Shown here piece by piece: positions 12,924-29,386 of a stretch of DNA of 36,721 nucleotides. A model generated the notes under the pieces. The model had not been told where the DNA came from, made no database searches, and saw only the letters and a program-made list of their open reading frames with translations. Both the position numbers and the translations under genes were made by a program. Origin of the DNA: Verrucomicrobiaceae bacterium (GTDB taxonomy: Bacteria > Verrucomicrobiota > Verrucomicrobiia > Verrucomicrobiales > Verrucomicrobiaceae); NCBI GenBank assembly GCA_027487315.1, contig JAIYDW010000109.1, positions 1 to 36,721 on the forward strand, given 5' to 3'. How positions within the stretch are numbered: position 1 is the first letter of the stretch; each line of letters opens with the position of its first letter.

Positions 12924-13523
12924 ATGAAAACGCACCTTCGAGATCAGTTCAGAGAAATGTTTGCTGGTGCGGACAAGGAACTCTGGGCAAAGCAGTGCCG
13001 GGAGCTTGAAGGACAGGTGATTCGGTTCTGCTTGGATGCTTGCAAGCTTGGAAAAGGCAATGTGGTGACCTTATTTGGTGGATTGCGGAATGAGGTGGAT
13101 TTGGTGGCGAATGTGATGAGGGCATTGCTGGAAGAGGGATTGAGGCCGGCTCTTTTTGGCCTACAAGTCAATGAGGGCGAGGCGAATGCGAGGGAGATGG
13201 AGGCCTATTTGGTCGACGATCCGACCCAAATCAAACGCGGTCGATTCGGGGTCTGGGAGCCCGAAGTTTCAAAAACGTCGCTGGTGCATCCTGGAGAAAT
13301 CACCGTGGTGTTGGTTCCCGGCTTGTTTTTCTCTGAGAAGAATGGGGCTCGTTTGGGGCGCGGGGGTGGCTTTTTTGACCGGTATCTTGCCAGGACCCCT
13401 GCATCGGTGATGCGGGTAGGGGTGGGTTTGGAGTGTCAAGTGCGGGAGGGCATTCCTTTGGAGAGTCACGACCAAAGCATGGACTGGCTGGTGACCAATC
13501 AGCGGATTGTTTCCTGCTGCTAA
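12924..13523 (+). CDS. 5-formyltetrahydrofolate cyclo-ligase
   Basis: A 199-residue enzyme of the 5-FTHF cyclo-ligase family, which converts 5-formyl-THF to 5,10-methenyl-THF with ATP and returns folate to one-carbon metabolism. The ATP/Mg signature GRGGGFFDRYLA (145-156) and the late motif HDQSMDWLVT are clear. The phosphate-proximal segment VLVPGLFFSEKNGARLGRG is also typical. A GAGGTG sequence about 12 bases upstream could serve as a ribosome site. The stop codon overlaps the stop of the convergent royal-jelly-family gene by two bases. Confidence 0.88.
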   Translation: MKTHLRDQFREMFAGADKELWAKQCRELEGQVIRFCLDACKLGKGNVVTLFGGLRNEVDLVANVMRALLEEGLRPALFGLQVNEGEANAREMEAYLVDDPTQIKRGRFGVWEPEVSKTSLVHPGEITVVLVPGLFFSEKNGARLGRGGGFFDRYLARTPASVMRVGVGLECQVREGIPLESHDQSMDWLVTNQRIVSCC

Positions 13524-14785
13524 TCTCCGGAACGACCTGAGGCGGGAGTGCGTGTGCGGAACAGGCTGTAGGAGGGTTTGGCGTTTACGGAGGCCTTGTC
13601 TCCAAGTTTCGGAAGGGGGCGATTGGGTGAAAAAAAGTAGAGACGGCCATCCTGGCCGAAGGTGAGACTATCGGGCCAGAGGAGGCGGGCGTCGGAGACC
13701 AGGAGTTGATAGCTCTTGTTTTTGGGTTCGATGATGCCAATGCCTCGATTGGCGCTGTCCCCTAGATAGAGGTTGCCTTTGGAGTCGATCGCGATACTAA
13801 CCGAAGGCGGTTTGGTAGCATAATGTTCAATGGCTTTTGCCAGATCGGGAGCTGAACTTTTGGCGTTTCGAAGGAGTTTGGCGGGCAGCCTCTGGAGTGT
13901 GCGGGACTGGAGGGCGGAAAGGTAGAGCCATTCTCCTCGCCGGTCGATGGCCAATGAATCCACTCCGCACTGAGTGATCGTCGTGGTGCCATCAAGGCGG
14001 ACGGTGGAGCGTTCACTCAGGGCACTGATGGGTAAAGCGACGGAGGGATCTGGCTGGACGCAAGGGATGCCTTGGAGAACACGCCTGCAGAGGCCGCTTT
14101 CCAAATCTGCGACGATGATAGCGGCGTCCTGGCCATTTGCCGGGTCTGCGAGGTAGGCGAAGGGGGCTGAAGGGTCCAGCACCAGGTCGGTGCAAAAGGA
14201 ACTGGGGATCACGGCAGGGGGCGAAAGATAGACGACACGGTGGAGCCGCTCCTTGTCGATGTTCCAGCCTACCAGCTTTGGAGTTGTTTCGGAGCGTCTG
14301 CCATTGTCGAGCATCCACACGATGCCATCTTGGCCCACGGCGATGGCTTCCAGAGAATCGAGGGGGAGTCGAGCTTCGGCGGAAGCGGTGCTCATCCATT
14401 CATCTGGGAAGGGGATCACTTCGCCGGACCTGAGGATGCGTGCTGCCCGAAGATTGGGTTTTTCACGTTGATCGAGGGCGACCAGCCAATCGCCATTGGA
14501 CGAGGCCGTGATGGCGGCGGGTGCCAGAGTGAATTTGAGCACCTCTTCAACATTTTCGCTGATGGAGAAGGTGCCGGCGAGCGAAGAGGAGATGAGCGAG
14601 ACAAGGCCAAGAGCGCAGGCCAGGGGATGCTGGAATGCGGTTCTCCAACGAAGGGTAAATTGGCTGGTATGGTGAATGGGCACTGGTGATGAGTATCGGG
14701 CATTGGTGCGGGAAAGCCAAATGAAAGGAGAGACGATGAGGCCCGGATTGTCTGGAGCGGTGTTTGATTGCAAATGGAGGCTCAA
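13520..14785 (-). CDS. Major royal jelly/yellow-family beta-propeller protein, probably secreted
   Basis: A 421-residue protein. The central part matches the major royal jelly protein/yellow family: FCTDLVLDPSAPFAYLADPA, IIVADLESGLCRRVLQG and VDSLAIDRRGEWLYLSAL are hallmark segments of this propeller. Near residues 50-72 there is a hydrophobic signal-like stretch (LACALGLVSLISSSLAG). The long N-terminal part before it is unusual, and an internal GTG (at the Val of SSPVPIHH) could be the true start, leaving a normal signal peptide. Bacterial members are annotated as related to insect L-dopachrome-converting proteins, but their substrates are mostly unknown. It is on the opposite strand from its neighbours, and its 5' end is 18 bases from the dtd start, so a shared divergent control region would have to overlap coding sequence. 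Confidence 0.75.
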   Translation of the reverse strand: MSLHLQSNTAPDNPGLIVSPFIWLSRTNARYSSPVPIHHTSQFTLRWRTAFQHPLACALGLVSLISSSLAGTFSISENVEEVLKFTLAPAAITASSNGDWLVALDQREKPNLRAARILRSGEVIPFPDEWMSTASAEARLPLDSLEAIAVGQDGIVWMLDNGRRSETTPKLVGWNIDKERLHRVVYLSPPAVIPSSFCTDLVLDPSAPFAYLADPANGQDAAIIVADLESGLCRRVLQGIPCVQPDPSVALPISALSERSTVRLDGTTTITQCGVDSLAIDRRGEWLYLSALQSRTLQRLPAKLLRNAKSSAPDLAKAIEHYATKPPSVSIAIDSKGNLYLGDSANRGIGIIEPKNKSYQLLVSDARLLWPDSLTFGQDGRLYFFSPNRPLPKLGDKASVNAKPSYSLFRTRTPASGRSGD

Positions 14786-18280: not shown

Positions 18281-18473
18281 GGGCGAGAGGGGTGAGAAGA
18301 TGATAGGTTGGGGGGGATGTCGGGGCTGATCAAAGGAATTTGGATGTTTTTCGTGTGTTTCGACTGACGGATCTTTGGGGAAGAGAGGGCAGAGGGACCG
18401 AGAAAGAGGTTGCTGATGGGTTGGAATAACGGCTATGTCAGGGCTCACCTCACCCTTTCAGCACTGGCAATTC

Positions 18474-19481
18474 ATGATTGAAACGAAGAAGATACTCATC
18501 ACTGGCGGCACCGGATCGTTCGGGAAGAAGTTTGTTGAAACGGTGCTCAAACGAAATCCTGAAGTCCCGCGGTTGGTGGTGTTTTCGAGGGATGAACTGA
18601 AGCAATATGAGATGTCCCAGCAATTTGGGATGGAGAAGTATTCGGGGCTTCGGTATTTCATCGGGGATGTAAGGGATCGGGATCGTTTGATGCGTGCGAT
18701 GGAGGGTATTGATGTCGTTGTGCATGCGGCGGCGCTGAAGCAGGTGCCGGCGGCGGAGTACAATCCGATGGAGTTCATCAAGACGAATGTGCTAGGGGCG
18801 GAGAACGTGATTGAGGCGGCGATCGACTGCGGGGTTAAGCAGGTGGTCGCGTTGTCGACTGACAAGGCATGTTCGCCAATCAATCTTTATGGGGCGACGA
18901 AGTTGTGTTCAGACAAGCTCTTTATCGCTGCGAATCGGATCAAAGGTCAGCACGACATACGGTTTTCAGTGGTGCGTTATGGGAATGTGATGGGATCCCG
19001 GGGGTCGGTGATTCCGTTTTTTATGGACCGTCGGAAGTCGGGTGTGTTGCCGATCACGCATGAGGAGATGACTCGATTCAATATCACGCTGGATGAAGGT
19101 GTGCGTTTGGTGATGGAGGCGTTGGAGTCTGGATTTGGTGGGGAGATTTTGGTGCCGAAGATTCCGAGTTATCGGATCACGGAGTTGGCGGAAGCCATTG
19201 GTCCGAACTGCGAGCGTCCGGTTGTGGGGATTCGTCCTGGGGAGAAGATTCATGAGGAGATGATTTCGACGGCTGATGCTTTGACGACGGTCGATTGCGG
19301 GAGCCACTACTGCATTTTGCCGCCTGGAGCGCCCGGGATTTGGGCGCACTACGAGAAGCTGGGTGCCAAGCCTGTGCCTCAAGGGTTCTGCTACAATTCC
19401 GGGACGAACGAGCAGTTTCTGACGGTGCCTGAGATTCGCGCTTTGATCACTGGGCATCTGGATTCGAGCTTCGCTGTCTGA
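18474..19481 (+). CDS. pseB: UDP-N-acetylglucosamine 4,6-dehydratase (5-inverting)
   Basis: The first enzyme of pseudaminic acid synthesis: it removes water from UDP-GlcNAc and inverts C5. The product has 335 residues. The Rossmann motif GGTGSFGKK is near the N-terminus. The catalytic segment STDKACSPINLYGATKLCSD has the DK and Tyr of the inverting PseB/FlaA1 type rather than the LegB type, and RYGNVMGSRGSVIPFF is also typical. ATG 18474 is preferred over ATG 18435 because the family begins with a few residues before ILITGG. No Shine-Dalgarno is visible. It leads the nonulosonate operon; pseC starts 3 bases after its stop. Confidence 0.94.
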   Translation: MIETKKILITGGTGSFGKKFVETVLKRNPEVPRLVVFSRDELKQYEMSQQFGMEKYSGLRYFIGDVRDRDRLMRAMEGIDVVVHAAALKQVPAAEYNPMEFIKTNVLGAENVIEAAIDCGVKQVVALSTDKACSPINLYGATKLCSDKLFIAANRIKGQHDIRFSVVRYGNVMGSRGSVIPFFMDRRKSGVLPITHEEMTRFNITLDEGVRLVMEALESGFGGEILVPKIPSYRITELAEAIGPNCERPVVGIRPGEKIHEEMISTADALTTVDCGSHYCILPPGAPGIWAHYEKLGAKPVPQGFCYNSGTNEQFLTVPEIRALITGHLDSSFAV

Positions 19482-19484
19482 GTC

Positions 19485-20645
19485 ATGCTGCCGTACGGAA
19501 AGCAGTCACTGGACGAGGCCGACATTGAGGCGGTGGTTGAGGTGCTGCGGTCTGATTTTTTGACCCAGGGACCGGCGATTCCCCGGTTTGAGGGAGCGGT
19601 GGCAAACTGGTGCGGGGCTGGACATGGGATCGCGATGGCGAACGGAACGGCGACGTTACATTGCGCGGCCAAGGCGATGGGGTTAGGGCATGGGGACTGG
19701 TTGTGGACGAGTCCGATTACGTTTGTGGCTTCGGCGAATGCGGGGCGGTATTGCGGGGCGAAGGTCGACTTTGTGGATGTGGATCCCGGGACGGTCAACC
19801 TGTCAGTCGGAGCGCTGGCGGTGAAGTTGGAGCAGGCGGAGAAGGAAGGGCGGTTGCCGAAGGTGGTGGTGCCGGTGCATTTTGCGGGGCAGTCGTGTGA
19901 CATGCCTAGCATTCATGCGCTGGGGCAGAAGTATGGGTTTCGGATCTTGGAGGATGCGGCGCATGCGTTGGGGGGGAGTTACGGGGGGGAACGGATTGGG
20001 AATTGCCGGTGGTCTGACGCGGTGTCGCACAGTTTTCATCCAGTGAAAATCATCACGAGTGGCGAGGGCGGGATGATCACGACGAATGACGATGAACTGG
20101 CTTGGCGCATTGGGACGTTGCGGACGCATGGGATCACGAGAGAGCCTGGGCGGATGACCCGCGAGGCGGATGGGCCTTGGTATTATCAGCAGTTGGAGTT
20201 GGGCTATAACTACCGGATGACGGATTTGCAGGCGGCGCTGGGGGCGAGTCAGATGAGTAAATTGGAATCGTTTGCGGCCAGGCGAAGGGAATTGGCGGAT
20301 TTTTATGATCGGGAACTGAGTGGGTTGCCCTTGCGTGCGCTGGCGCGAGATCCGGCAGGAGTCAGTGGTTGGCATTTGTACATGATTCGGTTGGATTTGA
20401 ATTCGATTCGGAAGACCCGCCGGGAAGTCTTCGACAGTCTGCGGGCACAAGGGATTGGAGTGAATGTGCACTACATTCCTGTGCATTTGCAGCCAGATTT
20501 TGAGAAGCTGGGATTCCGGGCTGGGATGTTTCCGGAGGCGGAGCGGTATTATGAGGAAGCGATCACGTTACCGCTGTTTCCGGCAATGACAGATGATGAT
20601 GTTGGACGGGTGCGTGGTGCACTGGTGGAGGCGCTCGGGCTATGA
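19485..20645 (+). CDS. pseC: UDP-4-amino-4,6-dideoxy-N-acetyl-beta-L-altrosamine transaminase
   Basis: A 386-residue PLP aminotransferase that acts on the PseB product and creates the C4 amine, later N7 of the nonulosonic acid. PseC hallmarks are VVVPVHFAGQSCDMPSIH, the PLP lysine Lys188 in SFHPVKIITSGEGG, and GYNYRMTDLQAALG. The length is typical. The stop overlaps the ATG (20642) of the next gene by 4 bases, so translation is probably coupled. In the standard pathway PseH would next acetylate the amine, but no PseH-like acetyltransferase follows. Confidence 0.93.
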   Translation: MLPYGKQSLDEADIEAVVEVLRSDFLTQGPAIPRFEGAVANWCGAGHGIAMANGTATLHCAAKAMGLGHGDWLWTSPITFVASANAGRYCGAKVDFVDVDPGTVNLSVGALAVKLEQAEKEGRLPKVVVPVHFAGQSCDMPSIHALGQKYGFRILEDAAHALGGSYGGERIGNCRWSDAVSHSFHPVKIITSGEGGMITTNDDELAWRIGTLRTHGITREPGRMTREADGPWYYQQLELGYNYRMTDLQAALGASQMSKLESFAARRRELADFYDRELSGLPLRALARDPAGVSGWHLYMIRLDLNSIRKTRREVFDSLRAQGIGVNVHYIPVHLQPDFEKLGFRAGMFPEAERYYEEAITLPLFPAMTDDDVGRVRGALVEALGL

Positions 20646-20659
20646 TGAAGGGGGATGCT

Positions 20660-21685
20660 ATGAGTCGAGTCATCGAAGCACAAACGGCGCGTCTCCTAGG
20701 ACCAAGGGAGTTGGTGTTTGAGACTGAGGTGCTGGACGCTGGTCGCCTGGCCGAAGACGAAGTCATGGCGGAGACGTTGGTGTCGGCTTTATCGGTCGGA
20801 ACCGAGATGGCGGCGTATAAGGGGTTGCCGCCGTTGCGTCCCGGGCCGGTGTATCCAAGAGTTGTGGGTTATTGCAACGTGGCGCGGGTTGTGGAGGTCG
20901 GTCACAAGGTCAAGGGATGGGCGGAGGGAGATGTGGTGCTGTCGCATCAGTCGCACCGAAGCGCGTTTGTGTGTAGAGCGGGTGATTTGTTGATTAAAGT
21001 GCCTGAGGGGACGGATCTAGGTGCGGCGGCGACGAGTTATTTGTTTCATTTGGGTTACTCTGCACTGCTCAATGCCGGTTTTCAGGTGGGTCAGCAGGTG
21101 GCAGTGGTGGGTTTGGGTGTCTTAGGGTTGGGAGCGGTTGCGTGTGCTGCGTTGGGAGGGGGGCGTGTGGCGGGTTTTTCGGAGCAGGTTGAAAGCCTGG
21201 AGAAGGCCGGGTTGTTTGGTGCCGATGTTCGTTGTCACAAGAGTGATGAGGCTGGGACTGAAGGCTATTTGGCGTCGACAGGGCAGGGTGGGGCGGATTT
21301 GGTGATTGTGACGGGCGATTCTTGGGCGGACTGGCTGCTGGCTTTGAAACTGGTGCGTCGGCGGGGGACGCTTTCGGTGATTGGCTTTCCGGGGCGGGGG
21401 CAGCCGGCTCCAGAGTTCAACCCTTTGGATCCGCAGTATTTTTATGAAAAGCAGGTGCGAATTCTAGCATCGGGATGGTCGCAAGACCGCAATGTCTCTC
21501 AGGAGGCGCTGTGGGCGGTGCGGCGCCGGAATTTGGGCTTTTTGCTGGACCAGATTCGGAGCGGGGGCCTGCCGGCGAGGGAGTTGATCAGCAGCGAGCA
21601 TTTGGGTAAGGAATTGGGGGAGGTCTATCGGGGGCTTGACGAGAATCGGGCGGGGCGTCTGTCGTGCCTTTTGCATTGGCGATGA
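20660..21685 (+). CDS. MDR-superfamily dehydrogenase (BchC/threonine-dehydrogenase-like)
   Basis: A 341-residue medium-chain dehydrogenase-like protein. The nucleotide-binding glycine motif is VAVVGLGVLGLGAVACAALGG at about 150-172. The catalytic-zinc cysteine of classical members is replaced in SALSVGTEMAAYKG, so it may not be a zinc alcohol dehydrogenase; this sequence resembles the BchC-type branch. ATG 20660 has a good ribosome site (AAGGGGG, 5 bases upstream). ATG 20642 overlaps the pseC stop and would add six residues. Its stop overlaps the start of the Gfo/Idh/MocA gene. The pair sits between pseC and pseG, where the standard pathway would have PseH. Its substrate is unknown; a sugar nucleotide or a precursor of an acyl group are options. 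Confidence 0.8.
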   Translation: MSRVIEAQTARLLGPRELVFETEVLDAGRLAEDEVMAETLVSALSVGTEMAAYKGLPPLRPGPVYPRVVGYCNVARVVEVGHKVKGWAEGDVVLSHQSHRSAFVCRAGDLLIKVPEGTDLGAAATSYLFHLGYSALLNAGFQVGQQVAVVGLGVLGLGAVACAALGGGRVAGFSEQVESLEKAGLFGADVRCHKSDEAGTEGYLASTGQGGADLVIVTGDSWADWLLALKLVRRRGTLSVIGFPGRGQPAPEFNPLDPQYFYEKQVRILASGWSQDRNVSQEALWAVRRRNLGFLLDQIRSGGLPARELISSEHLGKELGEVYRGLDENRAGRLSCLLHWR

Positions 21686-22758
21686 AGCGTGAGGTCACAA
21701 CTCCATTGCGCGCAGCCATTGTGGGTTGTGGGCGAATTGGTGCGAACACAGCTGAGCGGCTGAGGGAGACTTTGCCGCCGGTGTGGTTTCCGTACTCTCA
21801 TTTGGATGCGTTACGCGAGGTGGTCGGGGTGGAACTGGTGGCTGTTTGCGACCAAAACGAGGCGGCCGGGCGGATGGCGGCGGACACTTATGGAGCATCG
21901 AGATGCTATGTGGATGGTCTGAGGATGATTGATGAGGTTCGGCCAGATATTCTATTGATTGCGACTCGCACGGAGGGTCGAGCGAGGTTGATTGAACATG
22001 CGGCAGAGAAAGGGGTGGGGGGCGTGCACTTTGAGAAACCTTTGGCGCATTCAGTGATGGAGTGTCGGCATGCGTTAGCAGCGGCTGAGGTTGCCGGGGT
22101 GAAACTGAGTTACGGGGCGGTGAGGAGGTGCATGGATGTGCCGCGCCGGGTGAAGAAAGGAATTGATGCTGAGGAAATGGGTATGCTCAGGCAGATTGTG
22201 ATTGAGTGCGGACGGGTTGAATTGCTTTGGTCGCATCCGCATCACTTTGACTTGATCACTTTTTTTGTAGGCTTGAGCGACGTGGAAGCCATTCAGGCGA
22301 GAATGACCTTTGAGACGGCGGCATGGTCTGAGAGGGTGTTGGATGCGGATCCGATTGTTGAGGCGTTGTCGATTCAGTTCAGGGGCAGGCTGAGTGCGAC
22401 GATTCTGCCAACTGGTTCAGGAGTGGTGCGTTTGATTTGTGAAAGGGGAGAATATGTCATTGGTGGAAACACGTCTTGGCTTGCTGTCAGAGAATATGGG
22501 ACGGGCATTCGGGTGAGCGGTGAAAGGGAGGTCTCAGTTCCATTTACCATGAGTGGAAGACGGCGTGCCCTGATGGAGTTGGCATCAGCTGTGCGAGGTG
22601 AGGGGGCGACCTCCTACAGTGCTGCGGACATATTGCGATCTAATCAGTTGGGTCTTGCTGGAGCGTGGTCGGCCGTGAATCAAGGGCGAATGGTGAGGCT
22701 GGATGAAGTGCCAGACGATTTTACGGTGACGGGACGGAAGGGAGATTTGTTTGCATGA
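21682..22758 (+). CDS. Gfo/Idh/MocA-family oxidoreductase
   Basis: A 358-residue NAD(P)-dependent oxidoreductase. The N-terminal Rossmann motif is AAIVGCGRIGANTAERL and the family motif is HFEKPLAHSVMECRHAL (EKP with the conserved lysine). The C-terminal alpha/beta domain, with HPHHFDLITFFVG, supplies the presumed catalytic His. ATG 21682 overlaps the previous stop (ATGA); a GTG at 21664 would add six residues. The same 4-base overlap links it to pseG. This family oxidises or reduces sugars and sugar nucleotides. Together with the MDR gene it probably makes or alters an extra sugar or acyl precursor for this glycan. Confidence 0.85.
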   Translation: MKREVTTPLRAAIVGCGRIGANTAERLRETLPPVWFPYSHLDALREVVGVELVAVCDQNEAAGRMAADTYGASRCYVDGLRMIDEVRPDILLIATRTEGRARLIEHAAEKGVGGVHFEKPLAHSVMECRHALAAAEVAGVKLSYGAVRRCMDVPRRVKKGIDAEEMGMLRQIVIECGRVELLWSHPHHFDLITFFVGLSDVEAIQARMTFETAAWSERVLDADPIVEALSIQFRGRLSATILPTGSGVVRLICERGEYVIGGNTSWLAVREYGTGIRVSGEREVSVPFTMSGRRRALMELASAVRGEGATSYSAADILRSNQLGLAGAWSAVNQGRMVRLDEVPDDFTVTGRKGDLFA

Positions 22759-23813
22759 GGCGGGCGGTTTTTTTTCGGGCTGATGCCTCGCCTGAAGCTG
22801 GTTTGGGGCATGTGCGGCGGTGTGCGGTATTGGCGCAGGCTTGTCGTGAGTTGGGGGCTGAGGTTCATTTGATCGCGCGGTGGCGTGATGTGGCGATCGA
22901 GTCCGCAGGGGACTGGACGGGGGCGAAGATTCATGAGATGCCTTGGGAGTTGACGCCGGACGAGGATGCGGAGTGGGTGGTGAACGTGTGTCAGGAGTTT
23001 GGCATTGGGAAAGGCGTGCTTGACCACTATCGGTTGTCTGGAGCCTATCAGGAGAGGCTGGGAGAGAGTGAGTTGGAGTGGATGCAATTTGGGAACACAG
23101 GGCATGCACATCCTCTGTTGGGACGATGGGTACATGATGCGAGTCCCGGGGCTGAGATGACGGGTTATGAGGGTCGTGTGATCGGAGCTGGGACGGAGTT
23201 TTTGCTGGGGCCCCGGTATGCGTTGGTGGGTGAGGGCTTTCGGAGTGTTCGAGCGTTGCTGCCGGGGCCGAAAGAGGAGGCTGTCGAATCGATCTTGATC
23301 ACGTTTGGTGGCGGTGACGATCGCGGGGCGACGATGCGGGTGCTGGGTTGGCTGGATCGGCTGGGGTTTGAAGGTCGCAGACTGGTATTGACCGGGCCGT
23401 CCAATAGAAGTTTGGGAGCCCTTTGCGCGGCGGCGGAAGGGTCGGAGAGTTTGGAGGTGCAAGTAGGGAATTGGGAGCCAGCTGAGGCGATGGGCGGGTG
23501 CCAACTGGCGTTTTGTGCAGGAGGAACTTCTTTGAACGAGCTGGCTTGTCTGGGGCTTCCGGTAGTGATCCTGACGATTGCTGACAATCAAGTGGCCCCG
23601 GCTGAGGCCTGGCAGCGGGCGGGTCTTGGGAAGAATCTTGGGGCTGTGACTGAGGTGAAGGATTTGGCAGCGTGTGAGGTGATTGACTCGGTTTTAAGAA
23701 GGTCGGAAGAGCGATTGAGGATGGCTGAGAAAGCTTGGGGTAGTCAAGACGGTCTTGGGTCGCAACGTGTGGCGAGGAGAGTTCTTGGCTTGGTGGGGGC
23801 TGACGCTGATTGA
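22755..23813 (+). CDS. pseG: UDP-sugar hydrolase of the pseudaminic acid pathway
   Basis: A 352-residue GT-B-fold hydrolase that releases UDP from the 2,4-diamino-2,4,6-trideoxy-L-altrose nucleotide. The N-terminal motif FRADASPEAGLGHVRRCAVL contains the catalytic His of GHxxR, and the C-terminal half has FCAGGTSLNELACLGLPVV for UDP binding. It is longer than the 274-residue Campylobacter protein, but no acetyltransferase domain of the PseH type is fused to it. Its start overlaps the upstream stop, and pseF begins 39 bases later. Confidence 0.87.
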   Translation: MRRAVFFRADASPEAGLGHVRRCAVLAQACRELGAEVHLIARWRDVAIESAGDWTGAKIHEMPWELTPDEDAEWVVNVCQEFGIGKGVLDHYRLSGAYQERLGESELEWMQFGNTGHAHPLLGRWVHDASPGAEMTGYEGRVIGAGTEFLLGPRYALVGEGFRSVRALLPGPKEEAVESILITFGGGDDRGATMRVLGWLDRLGFEGRRLVLTGPSNRSLGALCAAAEGSESLEVQVGNWEPAEAMGGCQLAFCAGGTSLNELACLGLPVVILTIADNQVAPAEAWQRAGLGKNLGAVTEVKDLAACEVIDSVLRRSEERLRMAEKAWGSQDGLGSQRVARRVLGLVGADAD

Positions 23814-23852
23814 CATGAGGAGCACTTTCCGGCATTCGTCTTTCTTGTGTCT

Positions 23853-24542
23853 ATGTCTGCCATTGCCCTGATACCCGCCCGAGGGGGGAGCCGAAGAATT
23901 CCCCGGAAGTGTGTCCGGAGTTTTGCCGGGCTGCCGATGATTGCACACCCGATCAAGATTGCGCAGGCGAGCGGGTTGTTTGATCGCGTCATTGTGTCGA
24001 CGGATGATGCGGAGATTGCTGAGGTCGCCGAATCGTTTGGAGCGGAAGTGCCATTTGTAAGGCCGGCGGGGTTGGCGGATGATCACACGCCGATTATTGA
24101 GGTGGTTCGGCATACGATTCGGGAGTTGCGGGCTCAGGGGGTTGAGTTTGAGTTTTTGTGCCGAATCTTTGCGACGGCGGCGCTGCTTTTGCCGGAAGAC
24201 TTGAGGGCGGGCTTTTCGAGAATGAAGGGGGGAGCCCCCTTTGCGATGGGGGTGAAGGCATTCCCACACCCTGTGGAGAGGCGCTTGGCGTTAAGCGATG
24301 GGGGTCAAGTTACGATGGTGAACCCTGAGCACTTTGCGGTTCGGACTCAAGACCTGAGCGCAACTTACTATGACCCTGGACAGTTTTGCTGGGGGACGGC
24401 CAAGGGTTTCCTGAGTGATGTGGCTCCTTTGCTGACGCTAGGGACGCAAGGTGTGGTGCTGCCAAACTATCGAGGACTGGACATTGATGATGAAGATGAC
24501 TGGCGTCTGGCGGAGGCCGTTTTCATGCACTGCATGCGCTGA
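23853..24542 (+). CDS. pseF: CMP-nonulosonate (pseudaminate) cytidylyltransferase
   Basis: A 229-residue enzyme that activates the nine-carbon acid with CTP. The N-terminal motif is IPARGGSRRIPRK, followed by CVRSFAGLPMIAHPI. Most members have Asn after this Lys (KN); here it is Cys. STDDAEIAEVAESFGAEVPF and YYDPGQFCWG are typical of PseF. The gene has two possible starts, GTG 23847 and ATG 23853. The substrate may carry unusual N-acyl groups in this organism, given the neighbouring genes. Confidence 0.9.
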   Translation: MSAIALIPARGGSRRIPRKCVRSFAGLPMIAHPIKIAQASGLFDRVIVSTDDAEIAEVAESFGAEVPFVRPAGLADDHTPIIEVVRHTIRELRAQGVEFEFLCRIFATAALLLPEDLRAGFSRMKGGAPFAMGVKAFPHPVERRLALSDGGQVTMVNPEHFAVRTQDLSATYYDPGQFCWGTAKGFLSDVAPLLTLGTQGVVLPNYRGLDIDDEDDWRLAEAVFMHCMR

Positions 24543-24578
24543 TGGAGGGGAGAAACAATAGACAAGACTTTTTGACTC

Positions 24579-25481
24579 ATGACATTTGATGCAGAAGACC
24601 AAACGAAAGTGCGATTGACCGAATACGGATATTACGAGTTGGCTGAGAAGCCAACGCCGGAACGGCTCAAGGAGTATTATGCGGCGAAGTATTACCAGCA
24701 GTCAGTTCGCACTCACCAGCATGAGTATGGTGCTGCGGAGTTGTCGTTTCGCAGGAACAAGCTTGAGCAAAAGAGAATTAAAGTGGAGAGCCTACTTGAT
24801 CCACGTGAAGGACAGCGGCGATTCTTGGACATAGGAGCGGGTGAAGGTTTTGCCTTGGGTCATTTTGCCGGGGCTGGCTGGGAAGTGACGGGGATGGACT
24901 ACAGTTCGTTTGGTTGTGGTATGCACCATCCGGAGTTGTGTGACCGGCTGTTGGTGGGTGATTTGAACGAACTCATGGAGCAACTGAGGATGGATATGAA
25001 GAAGTATCAGTTGATCCTGATGGACAACGTATTGGAACATGTCCTGGAGCCATTGGAGGTCTTGAAGACAGTGAAAGAGTTGCTGGCGCCTGGAGGAGTT
25101 CTCATTGTGGAAGTGCCCAATGACTTTTCGGTTTTGCAGATGCGCCTATTGGAGTCGGGTCGAATACCGTCGCCGTTTTGGGTGGTTGCGCCGGATCACG
25201 TTTCTTACTTCAATCACCAGGGGCTGAAAGCCTTGGCCAAGGATGCGGGTCTTGAGCAGTGCGCTTTGATGAGTGATTTTCCGATTGATTTTGCGCTTTG
25301 CAATGAGCACACCAATTATGTGGTGGACAAGTCAAAAGGGAGGTCTTGTCATGGAGTGAGGGTTGAGTTGGACAACTTGATTCACGAAATTTCTCCAGAG
25401 GGGGCGAATCGATTGTATGAGGCGCTGGGGAGTCTGGGGCTGGGTCGGCAAATCGTTGCGTATTTCCGACAGCTGGTCTGA
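24579..25481 (+). CDS. Class I SAM-dependent methyltransferase
   Basis: A 300-residue methyltransferase. Motif I is FLDIGAGEGFALGHF, with MDYSSFG as the acidic strand end, and LILMDNVLEHVLEPLEVLKT and LLAPGGVLIVEVPND form the later motifs. The N-terminal 60 residues (YELAEKPTPERLKEYYAAKYY) recur in polysaccharide-locus methyltransferases. It lies between pseF and the sulfonate genes, so it may O- or N-methylate the nonulosonic acid or its acyl group. The 139 bases after it contain no gene and no strong promoter or terminator. Confidence 0.85.
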   Translation: MTFDAEDQTKVRLTEYGYYELAEKPTPERLKEYYAAKYYQQSVRTHQHEYGAAELSFRRNKLEQKRIKVESLLDPREGQRRFLDIGAGEGFALGHFAGAGWEVTGMDYSSFGCGMHHPELCDRLLVGDLNELMEQLRMDMKKYQLILMDNVLEHVLEPLEVLKTVKELLAPGGVLIVEVPNDFSVLQMRLLESGRIPSPFWVVAPDHVSYFNHQGLKALAKDAGLEQCALMSDFPIDFALCNEHTNYVVDKSKGRSCHGVRVELDNLIHEISPEGANRLYEALGSLGLGRQIVAYFRQLV

Positions 25482-25620
25482 AGCCCAAGAGGGGGGATTT
25501 TTTGGGTCGATTTCCGGGATTTGGTGCGGTTGAGCGTTGAAAATGAGTCATTCTTCTCTTTGCATGTGACTTCCAGCAGTAAGGCAGTCAAGCTGGTCAC
25601 CTGAATCCACTTTTCCTCTT

Positions 25621-27087
25621 ATGAATCCCTTTGTGAGTTGTCTTGGCCTCGTGCCACGGTCGGTCAAGCCCCGTCAGTCCGGGTTAACTATGGTTTTGGA
25701 TAAATTCATGGGGTCGAATGGGACTGCGGATTTGATCGAGACGGCGGGGGAGTATGTGGACGTGGTGAAACTGGGGTGGGGGTCTTGTGTGCTGTATCCC
25801 GAGGCAGCACTGGTGAAAAAGGTGGGGATGTTGCGGGACGCTGGGGTTCATGTGTGTCCAGGGGGCACCTTTTTGGAGACGGCGTTTGAGCATGGAAAGG
25901 TGGAGGTGATATTGGATCTGGCGAAGGAGATTGGCTTTGATGCGATTGAGATATCCAATGGGATTCACCCTGACATGACACGTGACGACAAGTTACGGAT
26001 GATTCGATTGGCCACGGAGCGCGGGTTTCACACGATGTCGGAGGTGGGCAAGAAGTTGCCCCAAGAGGATGGGGCGATGACGTATCAACAGCGGATTCAA
26101 GAGGTTAGGGAGGACCTGACTGCGGGCGCTCGGAAGGTGATCATGGAAGCGCGCGAGACGGGCACTGTGGGGATTTTTAAGGCGGATGGGAAGATCAACT
26201 CGGAACTGGCTTATGAACTATTCAAGCATGTCGATCCGGATTCGATCTTGTGGGAGGCGCCGCAGAAGGAGCAGCAGGTCTGGCTGCTGCGGCAACTTGG
26301 ACCTGAGGTGAACATTGGGAATGTGCCGCCTTCTGATGTATTGAGTTTGGAGTCGATGAGACATGGTCTGCGGGCGGATACCTTTCGAGATCACTGCAAG
26401 AACAGTTCGTGTGTTTTTCTGGAGCTTGGGGTAGGTGGGGCGCTGCGGGCACAGAGACGTGGTGATGTGGTGGTTGTGGTGGACGCTTTGCGGGCGAGCG
26501 CGACGATAGTCGAATGCCTGGACAAGGGTGCCAGGGAGTTGATTCCCGTGGTGAGCGCTCAGGATCTTCAGGGGGAGGTGACGATTGGAGAGCGGGGGGG
26601 GGCCAAGTTGCCGAATGCGGATTTGGGTAACAGTCCAAGAGAAATCACCCGGGAGGCGGTGGGAGGGAAGTCCGTGGTGATCACGTCGACCAATGGAACG
26701 GAATGTATTCGCACCGCCAAGGGGCCAAACAGTGTGGTGCTGATTGGGACGGTGACGAACTGCAAAGCGGTTGCCCAAGCGGCTGTGAGGATTGCGAAGG
26801 AGACGGGGCGGAACATCTCACTTGTGGCGGCGGGGAGGAACAACCTGCCTGCGATTGAGGATCGGGCGGGAGTGACGGAGATCATGAAGTGCATTGGGAA
26901 TGCCACACCACGAGGAACGTTAGAGCCGTGCTTCAGTGACAATTTGGAGCGTGACTTTCTTTCGAGCGACAGTGGTGTGAACCTGATCTCGCTGGGTTAC
27001 ATTGATGATGTGATCTATTGTTCGCGGCTGGACATCAGTGTGAGCGTGCCGATTTTCGATGGCGAACGGATTGTGGCCTTTGTTTGA
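25621..27087 (+). CDS. Fusion of phosphosulfolactate synthase (ComA) and 2-phosphosulfolactate phosphatase (ComB)
   Basis: A 488-residue two-enzyme fusion. Residues about 10-262 match ComA, which adds sulfite to phosphoenolpyruvate to give phosphosulfolactate: GLTMVLDKF, YVDVVKLGWGS, CPGGTFLETAFEHGK, FDAIEISNG and MSEVGKK in the expected order, then WEAPQKEQQVWLLRQLGPEV and LESMRHGLRADT. Residues about 275-488 match ComB, the Mg-dependent phosphatase that yields 3-sulfolactate: VVVDALRASATIVECLDKGA, ADLGNSPREI, ITSTNGTECI and AAGRNNLPAIEDRAG. These are the first two steps of coenzyme M synthesis in methanogens, but no later step (ComC, ComD/E) is present. The gene sits between pseF and pseI, next to an ATP-grasp ligase. 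I infer that it supplies sulfolactate to decorate the surface sugar. No Shine-Dalgarno precedes the ATG. Confidence 0.87.
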   Translation: MNPFVSCLGLVPRSVKPRQSGLTMVLDKFMGSNGTADLIETAGEYVDVVKLGWGSCVLYPEAALVKKVGMLRDAGVHVCPGGTFLETAFEHGKVEVILDLAKEIGFDAIEISNGIHPDMTRDDKLRMIRLATERGFHTMSEVGKKLPQEDGAMTYQQRIQEVREDLTAGARKVIMEARETGTVGIFKADGKINSELAYELFKHVDPDSILWEAPQKEQQVWLLRQLGPEVNIGNVPPSDVLSLESMRHGLRADTFRDHCKNSSCVFLELGVGGALRAQRRGDVVVVVDALRASATIVECLDKGARELIPVVSAQDLQGEVTIGERGGAKLPNADLGNSPREITREAVGGKSVVITSTNGTECIRTAKGPNSVVLIGTVTNCKAVAQAAVRIAKETGRNISLVAAGRNNLPAIEDRAGVTEIMKCIGNATPRGTLEPCFSDNLERDFLSSDSGVNLISLGYIDDVIYCSRLDISVSVPIFDGERIVAFV

Positions 27088-27097
27088 GATTGAGAAG

Positions 27098-28321
27098 ATG
27101 AGCAAGACACTAATGATCATAGGGGCGGGGCACGAACAGGTGCCGGCCATCAGAATGGCGGCGGAGATGGGTTATCGGGTGCTGACTACGGATCGAAATC
27201 CTGAGGCGCCGGGTGTCGCTCATGCGCATTTCTTTGAGTTGGTCAGCACGGGTGACAAAGAGGGGAATTTGGAGGCCGCGAGGAAGCATGCGATTGCCGG
27301 TGTGATGACGTTGGGGTCGGAGACGGCGGTGCCGGTTGTGGCGCATATCGCCCAAGTGTTAGGATTGCCGGGGTTTTCGGAGGAGACGGCCTACAAGGCG
27401 ACGAACAAGAACGCGATGAGGGCTGCGTTTGAGGCGTTTGGGGTGCCTGCGCCGGTGAGCAGGCCGGCATTAACCCTGGAGGAGGTGGAAGCGTTTGCTG
27501 AGGTGCATGGTTTTCCGCTCGTGTTGAAGCCGAGTGACTGTTCGGGTCAACGCGGAACGACGCGGGTGGATGAGATTGCGGGGTTGGAGGTTGCGTTGGA
27601 AAGCGCCTTGCGATTCTCGACAGATGGTCGGGCGATTGTGGAGACGTTTTGCGAGGGTATTGAGATCAACGTTACGGCTGCGGTGGTAGGCGGGGAGGTC
27701 CACTTTTTGTCGTTGTCTGACCGGATCACTGCGGAGCCACCGCATTTTGGGATCGCAATTGAACACATTTCTCCTCCACAGGTGGATGACGAGATGGCTG
27801 AGGCGATTCGGGAGGCCTCGCGGCTGGCGATCAAGGCGATCGGATTGACGGATGGGATTGCGTATCCGCAGGTGATTGCGAGTCCGAAGGGACCGCGGGT
27901 GATTGAGATTGCGGTCCGAATCCCGGGTGGTCACATGAGGGAGGTGGCGTGGTATCGTAGCGGGGTGGACATGATCGAGATTGCGATTCGGCAAGCGATG
28001 GGAAATGAGGATCCGTGGGGGAGTTGTCGGAGAATCCCGGCGAAAGCGGCTTTGTCAGTCAAATTCATCACGGAGTTGGATTGTCCGGACCATGGGGGGC
28101 GGAAGGTGGTTTCAATTGAGGGACTGGAAGAAGCGAGAGCCTTGCCCGGGGTGCATTTGGTGAGATTTTATCTGCAAGAGGGAGATACGATTCCGAGACT
28201 TGACAGTTCTGCCGCGAGGTTTGGTGCCGTGATTGCTTCGGGGGTAAATCGGGAGGAGGCCTGTCGATTTTCGCGGGAAGCAGCAGAAAAAATTGGGTAT
28301 CCCTTGTCGAGGGCGAAATAG
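27098..28321 (+). CDS. ATP-grasp carboxylate-amine ligase
   Basis: A 407-residue ATP-grasp enzyme. An N-terminal preATP-grasp Rossmann-like domain (TLMIIGAGHEQVPAIRMA) is followed by the ATP-binding lysine segment FPLVLKPSDCSGQRGTTRV and the lid strand IVETFCEGIEINVTA. The metal-binding end VIEIAVRIPGGHM has the E-x3-R pattern of the family. Such enzymes activate a carboxylate as acyl phosphate and join it to an amine or other nucleophile. Starting at ATG 27098, with GAGAAG just upstream, it follows the ComAB fusion by 10 bases, so cotranslation is likely. I infer that sulfolactate is the carboxylate and that a nonulosonic acid or its diamino-sugar precursor is the acceptor. Other acids are possible. 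Confidence 0.86.
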   Translation: MSKTLMIIGAGHEQVPAIRMAAEMGYRVLTTDRNPEAPGVAHAHFFELVSTGDKEGNLEAARKHAIAGVMTLGSETAVPVVAHIAQVLGLPGFSEETAYKATNKNAMRAAFEAFGVPAPVSRPALTLEEVEAFAEVHGFPLVLKPSDCSGQRGTTRVDEIAGLEVALESALRFSTDGRAIVETFCEGIEINVTAAVVGGEVHFLSLSDRITAEPPHFGIAIEHISPPQVDDEMAEAIREASRLAIKAIGLTDGIAYPQVIASPKGPRVIEIAVRIPGGHMREVAWYRSGVDMIEIAIRQAMGNEDPWGSCRRIPAKAALSVKFITELDCPDHGGRKVVSIEGLEEARALPGVHLVRFYLQEGDTIPRLDSSAARFGAVIASGVNREEACRFSREAAEKIGYPLSRAK

Positions 28322-28336
28322 AACCTTTTTAGAAAA

Positions 28337-29386
28337 ATGAGAATTGGCAAATTCCAAATAGATCGAAGTGATAGACCCTTTGTCATTGCAGAGCTTTCAG
28401 GGAATCACAATGGTTCTTTGGATCGGGCGATCAGGCTTGTCGAGGCGGCGGCGGCGACGGGGGCTCAGTGCGTTAAGTTGCAGACGTATCGGGCGGATAC
28501 GCTGACGTTGGATGTGACGGAGGGAGAGTTTGTGATTTCGGATCCGAAGTCGCTGTGGAAGGGGCGTTCGTTGCATTCGCTGTATGAGGAGGCGCACACG
28601 CCATGGGAGTGGCATGAGCCGATCATGAAGCGGGCGGCCGAGTTGGGGGTGGTGTGCTTCAGCAGTCCGTTTGATGAGACGGCGGTGGATTTTTTGGAGG
28701 GGCTGGATGTGCCTGCCTACAAGATTGGGTCGTTTGAATGCACGCATTTGCCGTTGTTGAAGAAGGTGGCGGAGACGGGCAAGCCGGTGATTCTTTCGAC
28801 GGGGATGGCGACAGTGGCGGAGATTGATGAGGCAGTGTGGACGTTGCGGGCGGGGGGATGTTCTGAGTTGGCGCTTTTGAAGTGCACGAGTTCGTATCCG
28901 AGCACGCCGGAGAATTCGAATTTGGCGACGTTGCCGCATTTGAGGGAGATGTTCGGGTGCGAGGTGGGCATCTCGGATCACACGTTGGGGATTGGGGTGA
29001 GTGTGGCGTCGGTGGCGCTGGGGGCGGTGATCATTGAGAAGCATTTCACGCTGGCGCGGGCGGATGGCGGGGTGGATTCGGCGTTTTCGATGGAGCCTGA
29101 TGAGATGAAGGCGCTGGTGGTGGAATCGGAGCGGGCGTGGCAGGCGATGGGACGGATTCACTATGGGCCGACAGCGGCGGAGCAGGGGGCGGTGAAGCGG
29201 CGACGGTCGATTTACCTGAGTGAGGATGTGGGGGAAGGGGAGGTGCTGAGTGAGGGCAATTTGAGGGTGGTGCGTCCTGGGCACGGGCTGGAGCCGAGGT
29301 TTCTGCCCTTGGTGTTGGGGAGGCGACTGAGGCGGGCGGTGACGAAGGGGACGCCGTTGAGTTGGGATTTGCTGTTGGAGGGGTAG
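28337..29386 (+). CDS. pseI: Pseudaminic acid synthase
   Basis: A 349-residue enzyme that condenses the freed six-carbon diamino sugar with phosphoenolpyruvate to give a nine-carbon acid. The NeuB-type barrel starts with FVIAELSGNHNG. The sequence SLYEEAHTPWEWHEPIM is a PseI signature not shared with NeuB or LegI. The metal-binding His of GVDSAFSMEPDE and IIEKHFTL is present, and residues about 290-349 form the SAF (antifreeze-like) domain (RRSIYLSEDVGEGEVLSEGNL). It is the last pathway enzyme here and begins 15 bases after the ATP-grasp gene. Both it and the ComA domain use PEP. Confidence 0.92.
   Translation: MRIGKFQIDRSDRPFVIAELSGNHNGSLDRAIRLVEAAAATGAQCVKLQTYRADTLTLDVTEGEFVISDPKSLWKGRSLHSLYEEAHTPWEWHEPIMKRAAELGVVCFSSPFDETAVDFLEGLDVPAYKIGSFECTHLPLLKKVAETGKPVILSTGMATVAEIDEAVWTLRAGGCSELALLKCTSSYPSTPENSNLATLPHLREMFGCEVGISDHTLGIGVSVASVALGAVIIEKHFTLARADGGVDSAFSMEPDEMKALVVESERAWQAMGRIHYGPTAAEQGAVKRRRSIYLSEDVGEGEVLSEGNLRVVRPGHGLEPRFLPLVLGRRLRRAVTKGTPLSWDLLLEG

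Follow-up and report, generated by a model that had tools for sequence, protein, structure and literature searches.

To understand the genetic setting of a predicted sulfolactate-forming enzyme in a Verrucomicrobiaceae bacterium, we analysed a 36,721-nucleotide stretch of DNA (contig JAIYDW010000109.1 of assembly GCA_027487315.1, a Verrucomicrobial MAG; hereafter the window). Profile searches of its open reading frames revealed a run of plus-strand genes from 18435 to 29386 that makes up an operon for pseudaminic acid (Pse), a sialic-acid-like sugar:

18435..19481 (+), PseB-like UDP-GlcNAc 4,6-dehydratase/5-epimerase (PF02719, E 2e-100); the name PseB is inferred from family and position, an orthologue preceding PseC in the related loci L047, L048, L165 and L189 described below
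19485..20645 (+), PseC, UDP-4-amino-4,6-dideoxy-L-AltNAc transaminase, which makes the free 4-amino group (TIGR03588, 528.3 bits against a cut-off of 423.5)
20642..21685 (+), zinc-type alcohol dehydrogenase family protein (PF00107)
21664..22758 (+), Gfo/Idh/MocA oxidoreductase (PF01408)
22755..23813 (+), divergent PseG-like UDP-sugar hydrolase (TIGR03590, 128.8 bits, below the cut-off of 153.55)
23847..24542 (+), PseF, pseudaminic acid cytidylyltransferase (TIGR03584, 241.6 bits against 205.7)
24579..25481 (+), SAM-dependent methyltransferase of 300 aa, a candidate O-methyltransferase (PF13489)
25621..27087 (+), ComA-ComB fusion (ComAB; ComA residues 1-258, ComB residues 262-487), predicted phosphosulfolactate synthase plus 2-phosphosulfolactate phosphatase
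27098..28321 (+), ATP-grasp carboxylate-amine ligase (PF02786, 45.2 bits against 19.8; PF18603, LAL_C2, 56.3 against 29.4)
28337..29386 (+), PseI, pseudaminic acid synthase (TIGR03586, 471.7 bits against 340.25)

The ligase frame is listed from 27059, where it would overlap ComAB, but its homologues align from the methionine at 27098, about ten bases behind the ComAB stop.

We first examined the fusion itself. The frame at 25621-27087 begins with ATG, is open throughout and encodes 488 aa. Pfam ComA (PF02679) covers residues 13-253 (profile 3-243 of 243, 285 bits against a cut-off of 25.2, E 5.9e-85), and 2-ph_phosp (ComB, PF04029) covers residues 279-480 (profile 11-224 of 226, 142 bits against 26.4, E 2.1e-41). 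The nearest solved relatives are the M. jannaschii and B. subtilis phosphosulfolactate synthases for the first half and bacterial 2-phosphosulfolactate phosphatases for the second. In an AlphaFold2 model (mean pLDDT 93.2, pTM 0.81), residues 1-258 superposed on solved ComA 1qwg (Z 37.5, rmsd 1.3) and residues 262-485 on ComB 1vr0 (Z 31.4, rmsd 1.7), so the linker is only a few residues. A sequence-only reading had described two complete domains in one chain with a very short linker, and had proposed that lost catalytic residues or an assembly artefact would overturn this description. We found neither. In a 39-row alignment, all 42 positions conserved at 90% or more in 27 ComA rows and all 16 such positions in 17 ComB rows are kept. 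A 99%-identical fusion lies on a separate MAG contig titled Verrucomicrobiaceae (CANETF010000028.1; L047), and full-length fusions 43-66% identical to that of the window occur in seven other species-level genomes, four of them on chromosome-size contigs of 2.2-4.9 Mb. The reported fusion is therefore real. The score for the NCBIfam ComA equivalog (TIGR03849) was 278.5 against a cut-off of 280, although one other fusion (genome G454) passes at 288.6, and the ComB scores are well under their cut-offs.

A scan of genome contigs and taxon-restricted searches identified the seven further fusions in L048 (a betaproteobacterial MAG), L049 (a Comamonadaceae MAG), L050 (Hydrogenovibrio UBA650), L164 and L165 (genomes G573 and G578, same order as L050), L189 (genome G1161, same class as L050) and L143 (genome G454, same family as L049). 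G573, G578, G1161 and G454 are the four with chromosome-size contigs. No fusion was found in the other 288 genomes of the window's own phylum that were searched. In a maximum-likelihood tree of ComA domains, the fusions of the window, L048, L049, L050, L164, L165 and L189 form one clade (support 100/99), with the window next to the L048-L049 pair (100/87), which suggests transfer between Pseudomonadota and Verrucomicrobiota. The G454 fusion lies just outside with weak support. We found no phage match and no confirmed viral contig, and the listed plasmid hits are separate ComA or ComB genes, the best being a Legionella pair, so a phage or plasmid origin was rejected.

In each of the seven clade members ComAB adjoins the ATP-grasp gene and PseI is in the cluster. 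The order is ComAB, ligase, PseI in the window, L048, L049, L050, L164 and L165. In L189, PseB-C-F-G run one way and methyltransferase, PseI, ComAB and ligase run the other, so the linkage survived a rearrangement. The methyltransferase has a homologue in L049, L050, L164, L165 and L189; L048 instead has a NanM-type sugar O-methyltransferase. The two oxidoreductases at window 20642-22758 are also present in L047, but no homologue was detected in the proteobacterial ComAB clusters. L047 has ComAB and the ligase, but PseI is not among the last 850 bases of its contig behind the ligase. An adenylylsulfate kinase gene (PF01583; L047:12767-13354, minus strand) lies there instead, which is compatible with local sulfur metabolism and is a possible link to sulfite supply or sulfation. 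The gammaproteobacterial L164 and L165 clusters lie beside flagellin-like genes, with a large MptE-domain (Maf-type) protein found in L164 and its homologue in L165. The outlying G454 fusion is also next to flagellins, with a DesI-like sugar aminotransferase (below cut-off) and a weak ATP-grasp match, but PseB, PseF, PseG and PseI homologues were absent from the stretch read. Unfused ComA-ComB pairs elsewhere (L051, L052, L054, L057 and L071) have neither the ligase nor PseI in the stretch examined.

Considering that the known uses of sulfolactate are as a spore-type solute or in coenzyme M or sulfonolipid synthesis, we asked whether the Pse genes might simply be neighbours without a shared function. 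No later coenzyme M gene and no sulfopyruvate-route gene was identified in the window, as the sequence-only reading had said for coenzyme M, and seven loci from three groups keep ComAB, the ligase and PseI together. We consider this possibility very unlikely. In its favour is the case of Legionella, where ComA is fused to the C terminus of an acyl-AMP ligase plus carrier protein (about 970 aa) and followed by ComB (L013:11859-14771, a Legionella lytica plasmid; L053:7859-10774, L. rowbothamii); in L. lytica a BioF/serine-palmitoyltransferase-like enzyme precedes it. This arrangement looks like a sulfonolipid route, but its different fusion partner and its position elsewhere in the ComA tree rule it out as the same system. 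A gammaproteobacterial MAG (L054:836-4632) has ComA, ComB and then a frame that reads like an acyl-AMP ligase as separate genes.

We next looked for PseH, the enzyme that acetylates the PseC-made amino group with acetyl-CoA in the Campylobacter/Helicobacter pathway (PseB-C-H-G-I-F). The best TIGR03585 score in the window's whole genome (G000) was 21.7 bits against a cut-off of 93.1. The model was not over cut-off in any of the eight fusion-bearing genomes tested (G000, G289-G292, which are the genomes of L047-L050, G573, G578 and G454), and gave no match at E 0.001 in G292, G573 and G578. As none of the Verrucomicrobiaceae genomes tested passes this cut-off, its absence there is weak evidence, and the argument rests mainly on G573 and G578, which have other Pse genes on chromosome-size contigs. 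An acetyltransferase of another family could still acetylate N4. The gene in the place of PseH is the ATP-grasp ligase, whose relatives join carboxylates to amines and whose nearest characterised solved relatives are L-amino acid ligases (3vot, BacD). An AlphaFold2 model of the ligase (four rows, mean pLDDT 66.5) was too poor to use.

These results suggest that the fusion makes (R)-3-sulfolactate from PEP and sulfite, the ComA domain giving (2R)-phospho-3-sulfolactate and the ComB domain removing the phosphate, as is known for the two families. The ligase would then activate the carboxylate with ATP and form an amide with the 4-amino group that PseC places on UDP-2-acetamido-2,6-dideoxy-L-altrose. 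PseG, PseI and PseF would carry the substituted sugar to a CMP-activated pseudaminic acid whose N7 bears a sulfolactyl group, perhaps O-methylated by the methyltransferase. In the Gammaproteobacteria a Maf-type enzyme would put it on flagellin. A flagellin glycan is not supported in this Verrucomicrobium, in which no flagellin match was found in the genome, and the sugar may go to another surface glycan. The analysis itself establishes the fused domains, their retained residues, the clade, the conserved linkage and the lack of a PseH match over cut-off, whereas the activities and substrates of both enzymes, the attachment site, the order of steps, the product and the acceptor are inferred; there are no biochemical or glycan data, and the link between ComAB and the ligase is positional. 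We hold this model with moderate confidence. The sequence-only reading is partly supported: it was right that two complete, by sequence probably active, domains lie in one chain outside a coenzyme M context, and a dedicated use of sulfolactate is likely, but it missed the Pse operon and the adjoining ligase, which suggest that use (acylating an amino sugar). Its proposal of channelling or fixed stoichiometry is possible as an inference from the fusion alone.

Alternatively, sulfolactate may be attached at another site or stage, for example if the ligase acts on free or CMP-activated 7-amino-Pse, or joins sulfolactate to an amino acid or other linker that is then attached. The amino acid ligase relatives fit this view, and the PseG homologues of the window and L049 score below the family cut-off, which fits an unusual N4 substituent but does not fix the order of steps. 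However, no extra amino-acid or linker gene is conserved across the seven loci, and we regard this variant as unlikely. It is also possible, though less likely still, that the ComA domain of this clade has changed nucleophile or product, and that the ligase attaches a glycerate-like or other 2-hydroxy acid. The clade is distinct within the ComA tree, and its representative in the window scores under the NCBIfam equivalog cut-offs. Glycerate-type N- or O-acyl groups occur on pseudaminic acid in Campylobacter. A literature search here returned a review (PMC3958885). Against this reading, every near-invariant ComA and ComB position is kept, and the ComB homologue 1vr0 was solved with (2R)-3-sulfolactic acid bound (PMC2954221).

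Both halves of the fusion and the Pse pathway are known. Relative to ComA and ComB of methanogen coenzyme M synthesis and their B. subtilis relatives, the domains are homologous over their full length and the same two chemical steps are expected, but here they are fused and lie inside a Pse operon. Relative to the Campylobacter/Helicobacter pathway, PseC, PseF and PseI pass their equivalog cut-offs and PseB and PseG homologues are present, but the operon has ComAB and an ATP-grasp ligase where no PseH passes in the genome. The Shewanella oneidensis sfmABCDE flagellin modification operon (PMC3765264) likewise combines a NeuB-type synthase, a methyltransferase and an ATP-grasp gene (SO_3265), and an O-methylated acyl-like group was proposed on its nonulosonic acid; a TPP enzyme and a reductase stand in place of ComAB, and we found no sulfonate reported there. 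The nearest precedent found for the predicted product is the C. difficile type B flagellin glycan (PMC5207245), which carries a sulfonate on an amino sugar, but as taurine on a peptide linked to Fuc3N, and is neither a nonulosonic acid nor sulfolactate. In the open literature searched, which does not cover subscription papers, we found no report of sulfolactyl glycans and no paper joining sulfolactate with pseudaminic acid; the papers retrieved matched sulfolactic acid only and, by title, concerned other matters.

Related ATP-grasp ligases also occur without ComAB in Verrucomicrobial Pse-type clusters, where other plausible acid-forming genes are nearby: an octopine-dehydrogenase-like gene in L172 (genome G188) and an HMGL / 4-hydroxy-2-oxovalerate-aldolase-like gene in L169 (G207). 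With L171 (G217) and L173 (G191), these are sugar clusters in which such ligases sit beside octopine-dehydrogenase-like, HMGL-like or transketolase and short-chain dehydrogenase genes, as if each made a different acid to be ligated. The Shewanella operon fits the same pattern, although this generalization is inference. In the broadest view, which we judge only slightly more likely than not, pseudaminic acid N-acylated with 3-sulfolactate would be a new class of nonulosonic acid, sulfonated and doubly acidic, made by a transferable ComAB and ATP-grasp module that is one of several acid-making modules standing in for PseH. If true, this would link organosulfonate synthesis, known from coenzyme M and spores, to bacterial sialic-acid-like sugars and flagellin glycosylation, and would predict a permanently charged sulfonate on cell surfaces. 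It would also give a gene-level handle (comAB next to a ligase and PseI) to find such glycans, and suggests a more general rule in which Pse N-acyl groups are set by interchangeable acid-making genes coupled to an ATP-grasp ligase instead of an acetyltransferase.

Two further ComA-ComB-like reading frames, at 13586-15048 of contig C67 in genome G892 and at 6187-7362 of contig C12 in genome G932, contain in-frame stops and may be decayed fusions or adjacent pairs. Elsewhere in the window, 13520-14785 (minus strand) encodes a protein with a match to the major royal jelly protein family (PF03022).
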